From assembly GCA_035627955.1 (NCBI GenBank), contig DASPKU010000007.1:62001-126000 (forward strand): a DNA stretch of 64,000 nucleotides. Direction: 5' to 3'. Positions 16,235 through 57,149 of this stretch are shown here, piece after piece. The translations under genes and the position numbers were made by a program. Position 1 is the first letter of the stretch; every line of letters begins with the position of its first letter. The notes under the pieces are model-generated. The model had not been told where the DNA came from. It ran no database searches and saw nothing but the letters and a program-made list of their open reading frames with translations. The DNA comes from Phycisphaerales bacterium. Lineage in GTDB: Bacteria > Planctomycetota > Phycisphaerae > Phycisphaerales > UBA1924.

Positions 16235-16247
16235 AGGCGGGCATGGT

Positions 16248-16365
16248 AGGAACCCCGACCGTAAGGGAGGGACACCGCCGCGCCTCGCGGCGGTCCGCTC
16301 CGCATGCCATCCGCCCCACGCCCGCGAAGCGCGGGCGTATCGCTCCCTTACGGTCGCGGTTCCTA
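16248..16365. repeat. Inverted pair of TAGGAACCCCGACCGT units
   Basis: The left unit reads aggaaccccgaccgtaaggg and the right unit is its near-perfect inverse ending ggtcgcggttcct. Two GC-rich hairpins lie inside: ccgccgcg-cctcgcggcgg and cgcccgcg-aagcgcgggcg. Single units of the same family occur at 23190-23239 and 49627-49677. Confidence 0.8.
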
Positions 16366-16419
16366 TTGCTCACCTACACACAACTCTGTACCTTGCACAT
16401 CACTCAGAAGGAGCACACC

Positions 16420-23189: not shown

Positions 23190-23239
23190 ATAGGAACCCC
23201 GACCGTCAGAGAGGGATACAGCCGCGCTTCGCGGCTGTC
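23190..23239 (+). repeat. TAGGAACCCCGACCGT repeat, single unit
   Basis: ataggaaccccgaccgtcag followed by agggataca and the hairpin gccgcg-cttcgcggc. Same family as 16248-16365 and 49627-49677. It lies between the mug start and the stop of the HExxH gene. Confidence 0.75.
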
Positions 23240-23242
23240 CTC

Positions 23243-40875: not shown

Positions 40876-40916
40876 AACCCGGGACTTCGGCCCAAGGCGG
40901 CCTCAGTCCCGGCGTC
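40876..40916. repeat. Half copy of the GACGCCGGGACTGAG palindrome
   Basis: A single arm, aacccgggacttcggcccaa ending agtcccggcgtc, of 41 bases. The full palindrome of two such arms is in the dus gene (50414-50512) and after mgtE (57058-57149). Confidence 0.75.
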
Positions 40917-49535: not shown

Positions 49536-49626
49536 GCGCGACAGGAAGCCCGCGCGTGAGCAAGGGCATCGCCGCGCTTTGCAGAGATACGAGCAGCTGC
49601 GGTCGCACGCACCTGTTCACCCAACG

Positions 49627-49677
49627 CACGCCCGCGAAGCGCGGGCGTGTCGCTCCCTGACGGTCGCGGTTCCTATA
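49627..49677 (-). repeat. TAGGAACCGCGACCGT repeat unit (supplies the dus stop codon)
   Basis: On the minus strand: tataggaaccgcgaccgtca, then gggagcgacac and the hairpin cgcccgcg-cttcgcgggcg. The TAG in tataggaacc is the stop codon of the dihydrouridine synthase gene (49673-49675). Confidence 0.8.
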
Positions 49678-50854
49678 CCGCCGCGGGCTCGGTGTAGAAC
49701 TCGTCCAGCACGTTCATCCAGTCCGCGGTGCTGCTGATGGCGATCATGCGCAGGCGGACCTGTTCGGCGCGCGGGTGGTGGGCGGCGAAGCGGATGCCGA
49801 ACTTGCGCATCATCTTGCTGGTGGCGTCCTCGCCGTGCTTGAAGCGGCGGGTCACTGCCAACGACAGCTCGAAGTGCTGGCGGAGGACCTCGCGCTGCTC
49901 GCTCACTGTGGGCGCGGCGGGGGCATTGCCGGCCATCATCTGGCGGGCCTGGCGGAAGATCCACGGGTTGCCGATGCAGCCGCGGGCGACGCTCACGCCG
50001 CTGACGCCGGTGTAGGCGATCATGCGGAAGATCTCGTGCACGTTCCAGATGTCGCCCGAGCCGAGGATGGGCGCCTGGTGGTGCTTCTTCACGATGTCGC
50101 GCAGCAGGTCCCAGCGCGAAGGGCCGACGTACTTCTGCTGCACGGTGCGCGCGTGCACGGTCGCCCAGGCGTAGCCCATGCTGAACGCGGCGCTGAGGAT
50201 GCGGTCGAAGTTCGCGGCCATCTCGGGCGTGTCGTCGAAGGCCCGCCGGATCTTTAGGGTGCAGGGGATGCCGGCGGGCACGGCCTCGCGCACGGCCTCG
50301 AGGATGGCGATGGCGCCGTTGGGCTCGGCGAGCCAGTGGCCGCCGCGGGCCTTCTTCTCGATCTTCTTGACGGGACAGGCGAGGTTGACGTCGATGACCT
50401 CGAAGGAACTCTCGACGCCGGGACTGAGCCGCTCGGGGCGAAGTCCCGGGTTGAAGTTGGGCGCAACTGCCAACCCGGGACTTCGGCCCAGAGCGGCCTC
50501 AGTCCCGGCGTCGTACGCGATCTTCCTGTACTCCCGATCGCTCCGCGCCTTCTGCTCCACCATCTTGAGGGCGGCCGCGGCCATCTCCCGGGGGTCGCTG
50601 CCCATGATCTGGCCGGCGAGGGGGTGGTCCTCTTCGCCGCCGGGGATGTTGTCGTGGAGTTCGCCCAGGTCGGCCTTGTCGAAGCCGCGGCCCCCGGCGA
50701 GGAGGGTGCGGTCGAGAAGAGCCTCGGTGACGCAGAAGGGGCAGCCGTGGCGGCGGGCGATGATGCGCATGGCCGCGTCGGAGTACCCGGCGAGGCCGGC
50801 CTGGAAGAAGGGGGCGTCAAACGCGGGGACGAGGGCGGTGATGCGGGGGTCCAT
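49673..50854 (-). CDS. dus: tRNA-dihydrouridine synthase with an in-frame palindromic insertion
   Basis: Dus reduces uridine to dihydrouridine in tRNA with FMN and NADPH. The family core is present: FFQAGLAGYSDAAMR near the N-terminus, IDVNLACPVKKIEKK (catalytic Cys in NLACP), the HARTVQQKYVG segment, and SGDIWNVHEI and VSVARGCIGNPWIF for FMN phosphate binding. Just before VIDVNLACP, 33 residues (DAGTEAALGRSPG... to ...LSPGV) are encoded by a 99-base palindromic element whose length keeps the frame. I place the start at the ATG at 50854, with a GGAGG upstream; an ATG 35 codons earlier at 50959 is 18 bases from the divergent lipoprotein gene. The TAG stop is repeat-derived. Confidence 0.93.
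   Translation of the reverse strand: MDPRITALVPAFDAPFFQAGLAGYSDAAMRIIARRHGCPFCVTEALLDRTLLAGGRGFDKADLGELHDNIPGGEEDHPLAGQIMGSDPREMAAAALKMVEQKARSDREYRKIAYDAGTEAALGRSPGLAVAPNFNPGLRPERLSPGVESSFEVIDVNLACPVKKIEKKARGGHWLAEPNGAIAILEAVREAVPAGIPCTLKIRRAFDDTPEMAANFDRILSAAFSMGYAWATVHARTVQQKYVGPSRWDLLRDIVKKHHQAPILGSGDIWNVHEIFRMIAYTGVSGVSVARGCIGNPWIFRQARQMMAGNAPAAPTVSEQREVLRQHFELSLAVTRRFKHGEDATSKMMRKFGIRFAAHHPRAEQVRLRMIAISSTADWMNVLDEFYTEPAAV
50414..50512. repeat. Full GACGCCGGGACTGAG palindrome inside dus
   Basis: A left arm of 39 bases (from gacgccgggactgagccg), a 19-base spacer, and a right arm of 41 bases ending agtcccggcgtc, 99 bases in total. Related copies are at 57058-57149 and, as a half, at 40876-40916. 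It is read through in frame as 33 residues. Confidence 0.9.
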
Positions 50855-50977
50855 GCCGCGACGCCCCACCTCCTCCGCGATGCGGCGGGAGTCGAGGTTC
50901 TCGCCGCCCGGGGCGATCGCGGGGCTGGGCGGCGTAGCGTTGTTGCTCTCGCAGGACATTCAAGGGACTATAGAGAC

Positions 50978-51448
50978 GTGACCCAACACTCCCCCACCGC
51001 TGTTATCCGCGTTCCAGGGCTTGCGACCCGTGTTCTTGCCGCGGCGCTCGCGGCGGCCACCTTGCTGGGTGCTTGCAGGTCGGGCCCTTCCAAGGTGGAC
51101 TACGCCCGCTCGTTCCCGCCGCTGGCGCAGCAGGGGAACGTGAACGTGCAGGTGGTGCGGAAGGTGACGAAGATCGAGCTGACCAACACCACGGCCCGGG
51201 ACTTCGGCCCATCAACGCTGTGGATCAACTCGCGCTTTGCCCGGCCGGTGGAGTCGTTCAAGGTGGGTGAGACGCTGACGCTGGATCTCCGTGAGTTCCG
51301 CGACGAGCACCATGACGCGTTCCGCGCGGGCGGGTTCTTCGCGGCCGAGCCGCCGGACAAGATCGCGCTGGTGCAGATCGAGACGCAGGGGGCGGAGGGG
51401 AAGCCGGAGCTGATCGGATTTGTCGTGGTGGGCGGGGGCGAAGAGTGA
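50978..51448 (+). CDS. Predicted lipoprotein
   Basis: This 156-residue protein starts with GTG at 50978. A signal sequence (about 10-31) ends in the lipobox LLGAC, with Cys about residue 32. The mature part is small and beta-rich (VNVQVVRKVTKIELTNTTARDF, LTLDLREFRDEHHDAF, DKIALVQIETQGAEGKPELIGFVVVGGGEE). No family recognised. The stop overlaps the GTG start of the PIG-L gene in GTGA, so the two are translationally coupled. It is divergent from dus. Confidence 0.7.
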   Translation: MTQHSPTAVIRVPGLATRVLAAALAAATLLGACRSGPSKVDYARSFPPLAQQGNVNVQVVRKVTKIELTNTTARDFGPSTLWINSRFARPVESFKVGETLTLDLREFRDEHHDAFRAGGFFAAEPPDKIALVQIETQGAEGKPELIGFVVVGGGEE

Positions 51449-57057: not shown

Positions 57058-57149
57058 GATGCCGGGACTGAGGCCGCACTGGGCCGAAGTCCAGGTTTGC
57101 TGCGCGCACGAACCCGGGACTTCGTCGAGGATTCCTCAGTCCCGGCGTC
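57058..57149. repeat. GACGCCGGGACTGAG palindrome after mgtE
   Basis: gatgccgggactgaggccgc and, at the other end, cctcagtcccggcgtc form a palindrome of about 92 bases with a less conserved middle. It is closely related to the element in dus. Confidence 0.8.

Follow-up and report, generated by a model that had tools for sequence, protein, structure and literature searches.

How does an enzyme that modifies tRNA come to carry, within its reading frame, a long palindrome of a kind that lies mostly between genes? The question is raised by the gene of a tRNA-dihydrouridine synthase (Dus) in the stretch of DNA analyzed here (the window), 64,000 nucleotides from a Phycisphaerales bacterium (NCBI GenBank assembly GCA_035627955.1, contig DASPKU010000007.1, positions 62,001 to 126,000), whose genome we refer to as G000. 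An initial annotation had described a 99-base palindrome read in frame as 33 residues just before the NLACP strand of Dus, with no stop and with further copies in the window, and all of this was confirmed. The answer that we favor, and consider highly probable, is that a head-to-head pair of REP-like units entered a disordered loop of Dus, and that in the family of G000 (f1, whose members, where named, are Phycisphaerales genomes, most of them assembled from metagenomes) this loop is a recurrent landing site for lineage-specific, unrelated repeats.

When the sequence is inspected directly, positions 50414-50512 form a near-perfect palindrome of 99 bp, in frame and free of stops, that is translated as Dus residues 150-182 (DAGTEAALGRSPGLAVAPNFNPGLRPERLSPGV) and finishes about four residues ahead of the IDVNLACP strand. 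As a single strand it folds into one long hairpin (-93.5 kcal/mol, z -12.2), a result equaled by none of 200 shuffles. The palindrome is made of two hairpin units of ~41 nt, set head-to-head around a spacer of 17 nt. A half-unit search placed the first unit on the plus strand (50414-50454, GACGCCGGGACTGAG...CGAAGTCCCGGGTT) and the second in the opposite orientation (50472-50512, minus strand), the latter being a variant with a 12-nt inner part, GCCGCTCTGGGC. The spacer (50455-50471) has a dyad of its own, AGTTG..CAACT, and closes the long hairpin. A search with the unit found the same family twice more in the window, as a single intergenic unit on the minus strand (40876-40916), 9 nt past a plus-strand gene, and as an intergenic head-to-head doublet near two gene ends (57058-57149). 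One arm is matched exactly over 16 nt (CCCGGGACTTCGGCCC) in the neighboring plus-strand ORF (51195-51210); this stretch was rejected as a further insertion because it has no partner arm, and it is possibly a remnant or a chance match. The window also holds a second family of intergenic palindromes (TAGGAACC...GACCGTMAGGGAG...CGCCCGCGAAGCGCGGGCG), at 16247-16366, 23191-23240 and 49618-49676, the last copy directly adjoining the dus gene.

The host gene (49673-50959, minus strand) encodes a protein of 428 aa with the Pfam domain PF01207 (E 7.7e-43), and the best PDB fold matches of its AlphaFold model include E. coli DusB, E. coli DusC and T. thermophilus Dus, so that both domain and fold are those of a dihydrouridine synthase. 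All the residues that are invariant in a 34-sequence alignment, in which the window Dus is included, are kept in it. The enzyme is presumably active. The model has a pTM of 0.83 and most of the barrel is confident; residues 151-181, nearly the whole of the element, have pLDDT below 50 and are predicted to be disordered.

In order to place the element within the enzyme, we have used an alignment of 30 homologues and the parsed loops of about 130 Dus proteins. The element falls in a hypervariable alpha-beta loop (50405-50542, minus strand) that runs from the EYRKIAY helix to the FEVIDVNLACP strand. A Dus orthologue was found in 144 of the 150 family genomes, and every parsed Dus of f1 has extra residues at this loop, from a few to ~125, whereas the examined members of other families have none; measured from anchor to anchor, the span is 35-153 aa in f1 against 29 where the loop is lacking. 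Since Dus of f1 already has a hypervariable loop here, the element lengthens that tolerated loop or takes its place, instead of breaking into a compact enzyme. By ordinary TIM-barrel logic, the loop should lie on the face of the barrel opposite the active site. Long loops (G011, G075, G111, G119, G139 and others; loci L124, L216, L220, L223 and L218) often contain LRLPGGEQLG, DPTEGLGDD..ESCDPLD or CETLIDEVN, short motifs which, as read in the sequences, hint that part of the loop may be conserved for binding.

Beyond the window, pattern and DNA searches recovered ~66 recognizable units of ~41 nt in G000, an approximate copy number, with genic and intergenic fractions taken from the retrieved loci. 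The consensus is CGACGCCGGGACTGAG, a variable inner part and CGAAGTCCCGG(G/A)TTGG. The inner part differs among copies, often with its complementarity kept (GCG..CGC, ATCGC..GCGAT, GTCG..CGAC, GGCG..CGCC), and the doublets of G000 are all oriented plus-then-minus. With genes called by codon usage and not curated, the 56 non-genic units include 31 that follow a stop codon in the sense orientation at a distance of no more than 100 nt, in many cases of only 3-10 nt, and eight that do so in antisense. The exact unit pattern has 56 copies in G000 and one match each in two of the other ~149 family genomes, and the unit, as far as these searches of sequence go, is almost confined to G000. The same genome also has copies of an 8-nt repeat found in the Dus loop of G118 (L382, C8:98314; L393, C6:193096).

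Dus is one of several translated hosts. In-frame units were found in RadA, in a SNF2-type helicase (a doublet), in a linker of DNA polymerase I (PolA) and in TruA, all hosts being identified by Pfam, and an antisense unit lies in an ORF recognized by eye, and not by a family search, as alpha-mannosidase-like. One more copy forms the end of a protein and another is inside a small ORF. All seven forward in-frame insertions start in the frame DAGTE. The common unit is open in one other frame as well, and the choice is suggestive of selection on the frame, albeit in a small sample (n=7). Rickettsia palindromic elements (RPEs; cited in PMC3733652) are palindromes of ~100 nt that occur between genes and in frame within unrelated protein genes, and it was to these that the initial annotation had likened the planctomycete element. 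The likeness stands as one of habit, since the units of G000 are mostly intergenic and are also translated in several unrelated enzymes (Dus, RadA, SNF2, PolA and TruA), so that the palindrome is far from being limited to dus. It differs from RPEs in belonging to other organisms, in having a lineage-specific sequence and in being a doublet of ~41-nt units. The Dus site is not a plain one, the host loop being already expanded.

In its anatomy the element is REP-like. A palindromic unit of 20-60 nt in many dispersed copies, pairing in opposite orientation and a location mostly just downstream of genes, the general marks of REPs and REPINs, are all seen in G000. Intragenic REPs of the GTAG and CGTC families have been described as short palindromes, often in head-to-head doublets, that lie mostly after gene ends and in some cases wholly within ORFs (Di Nocera et al., 2013; PMC3733652). 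More than half of those intragenic inserts were doublets or groups, the hosts were biased to DNA repair genes (PolA, UvrABCD, RecBCD) and tRNA pseudouridine synthases, and recB, in two Xanthomonas species, was the sole reported case of insertion at the same site (PMC3733652). Unit size, doublets, gene-end bias and the G000 hosts PolA, RadA, SNF2, TruA and Dus all recall that system; the difference is that here a single Dus loop holds unrelated repeats in 23 genera, and dihydrouridine synthase is not mentioned in the text of that study (word count 0; PMC3733652). The unit fits neither superfamily. GTAG is absent from the foot of its stem (CGACGCC / GGGTTGG). CGTC REPs have a CGTC tag, a stem of 8-9 bp starting with A/T pairs, a loop of 4-5 nt and a CCA tail (PMC3733652), whereas the stem of our unit starts with C-G pairs and has an inner part of 8-13 nt; CGTC and CCA do stand at the ends of its complement, but each at the end where the other would be expected. 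In Rfam the unit matched nothing but generic hairpins, every one scoring far below its gathering threshold.

Could the element then be a REPIN moved by a RAYT (REP-associated tyrosine transposase), with the Dus copy as a single transposition event? Unit size, inverted doublets with a short spacer and location at gene ends fit REPs and REPIN/BIME doublets, and G000 has nine matches to the Y1_Tnp domain. Around eight of these nine loci, all RAYT-like, the unit core is absent within 3.2-3.3 kb, one RAYT-like locus has another palindrome, with an end of the GTAG type, at its flanks, and the unit itself has no GTAG tag, so that we consider this origin unlikely. The locus in question is L102 (G000:C11:59887-60231), whose flanking palindrome contains CTACAG/CTGTAG, and this implies one or more further REP families in G000. 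As no RAYT or other mobilizer was found beside the element, we say "inserted" on the strength of dispersal and of empty sites, and not of a known mechanism of transposition.

In many relatives, too, the loop is encoded by repeat DNA. Inverted repeats with a score of at least 13 (IR>=13) were present in 27 of 126 distinct loops and in none of 373 control windows, of the same length and from the same genes; when short-period tandem repeats (DR>=12) were accepted as well, the figures became 41 of 126 and 4 of 373, with thresholds set after inspection of the data and applied identically to the controls. In the 29 named loci, repeat density was 1.30 per kb in the loop and below 0.08 per kb elsewhere, the latter figure including three runs of N (~0.06 without them). 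Repeat-bearing loops made up 38 of 126 rows and occurred in 23 of 65 genera, though the genomes compared are kin and such counts should not be read as numbers of independent events. Mapped onto a Dus tree from which the loop had been left out, these loops require at least 29 state changes, which do not separate gain from loss, on a tree from a quick method with many weak forks.

The repeat words in the loops are unrelated across lineages (e.g., GTGACGAAG, GGCAATGG, GGCACGAAG, AGAGACGAAG, TCGGGAATC and AGTTCC), and REP-like palindromes recur in the Dus loops of G099, G153 and G154. In G153 and G158 (L222, L260), peptides resembling ETGWKPVPL are encoded twice in the loop by the palindrome ACCGGCTGGAAGCCGGT, which is dispersed in G153. 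The loop word of G011 is found at dozens of further places in its own genome, and the loop repeat is likewise dispersed in the genomes of G002, G016, G053, G065, G099, G152, G153 and G154; for G124, no second dispersed copy above threshold was found in its own genome. Dus homologues do carry segments of unrelated DNA at the same place, a pattern that could have spoken against the initial reading; yet in about a third of the loops the segment is itself a repeat, and each such repeat that was traced has dispersed copies in the genome it comes from, so that the reading becomes broader and not false. Repeats of this kind also reach other proteins, as in G016 (C26:64949-64998, L396), where an 8-nt repeat (SRDEETERRRDEVGGGG) has been inserted in frame in the gene of a protein bearing the von Willebrand-like motif DMSGSM.

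These dispersed copies bear on the idea that the segments arose where they are, through replication slippage in a loop that evolves fast and is free of constraint, their likeness to intergenic repeats being coincidental. Many loops do have tandem repeats of 7-8 nt, and loop length is highly variable. A match between the loop sequences and dispersed copies in their own genomes contradicts this in G000 and in no fewer than nine further genomes; besides, the doublet of G000 is no tandem array, both of its units have matches at dozens of other loci, and simple slippage does not produce inverted arms of 20-37 nt. Growth in place is thus very improbable as the general explanation. We infer that the copies arrived by insertion, and not by local growth, in every case, while the 7-8-nt tandem arrays could have partly grown in place by slippage. 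The cyanobacterial heptanucleotide repeats (STRRs) are repeat words with a period of 7 nt dispersed in the genome, and the words in many of the relatives' Dus loops may resemble them; the repeats described here belong to planctomycetes, often have long inverted arms and lie inside dus and mutS.

Empty sites support arrival from elsewhere. In genus g23 the loops of G022, G098 and G161 are empty and those of G124, G142, G152 and G157 contain four different repeats, and between G022 (empty) and G124 (filled) the flanking DNA is closely aligned on both sides of the loop. The empty sites thus belong to near relatives of other filled lineages, not of the lineage with the G000 element. Many of the genomes compared are metagenome-assembled and repeats can mislead assembly, so that an artifact of assembly or binning might be suspected; nonetheless, the element is far from the ends of its 369-kb contig, the frame is intact on both sides, the parsed loops stay in frame, and repeats are also found in the Dus loops of the near-complete single-contig genomes G124 and G082. 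An artifact is hardly credible.

Is Dus special, or would any loop do? In the same kind of scan, repeats were found in 33 of 128 Dus genes, in 2 of 30 MutS genes and in none of 21 RadA or 29 TruA genes; RadA and TruA were accordingly rejected as common insertion hotspots, although the TruA of G008 has one weaker repeat at another position. MutS is a second, weaker hotspot of the same-site kind, as its repeats of 7-8 nt lie in frame at a single site just ahead of the Walker A motif ITGPNMAGKS in G000, G011 and G153 (loci L418, at G000:C1:349335-351182, L405 and L384), one case, in G153, having been found apart from the scan of 30 genes. This site is short in most relatives, including G066, of the same genus.

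These differences bring in another possibility, that the repeats are kept for a useful RNA or DNA hairpin inside dus, which would slow ribosomes, protect the mRNA or direct its cleavage, or let Dus bind its own message; unrelated words could then replace each other because any strong hairpin would do. Along these lines, inverted repeats are far above the control windows and above RadA, TruA and MutS, the unrelated loop sequences share only self-complementarity and short-period repetition, and compensatory inner-stem variants exist among the units of G000. Against it, about two thirds of the Dus loops of the family have no such repeat and close species differ, some filled loops are tandem with no inverted partner (G013, G023, G141), and the same habit in MutS at a lower rate suits tolerance. 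We regard this explanation as quite unlikely. Tolerance of length is probably the main reason why the loop is filled, but by itself it fails to explain the richness of Dus with respect to RadA, TruA, MutS or the flanking DNA. The strength of the enrichment leaves some room, a modest minority chance in our view, for a positive role of hairpins in dus mRNA or for a target preference. A bolder version, that the loop is an actively favored site of landing or retention where any strong self-complementary repeat is beneficial, through an mRNA hairpin or through modulation of Dus by a disordered insert, is unlikely; if true, unrelated genome repeats would converge on the same codons across many genera.

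Returning to recurrent landing in a tolerant loop, the course of events was probably as follows. Dispersed palindromes restricted to one lineage, whose normal place is just downstream of genes, contributed a pair of units to the DNA encoding a disordered surface loop of Dus; the pair would have entered in an open frame, adding 33 translated residues. The loop leads from a helix into the barrel strand ahead of the catalytic region, and the enzyme would tolerate the insert because this side is expected to face away from the active site. Lineage after lineage would have gained its own, unrelated repeat here, by tolerance together with recurrent arrival.

In-frame insertion of REPs and RPEs is already known. 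In the open-licence literature, we found no prior report of a single enzyme loop being colonized time and again by many unrelated families of repeats, and the open-licence papers on Dus insertions, Phycisphaerae repeats and cyanobacterial small dispersed repeats do not report the Dus loop site. The recurring hosts (Dus, TruA, MutS, PolA, RadA) echo the unexplained bias toward repair and tRNA modification reported in 2013 (PMC3733652). A palindrome read in frame in a bacterial gene is usually an isolated curiosity, and comparison cannot test its effect. The Dus loop of this family offers dozens of natural replicates, the same gene and site with many unrelated repeats and with empty sites in close relatives, and these make it testable whether insertions are tolerated or selected, how small non-autonomous repeats choose their targets and by what route conserved enzymes gain new peptide segments from repeats.
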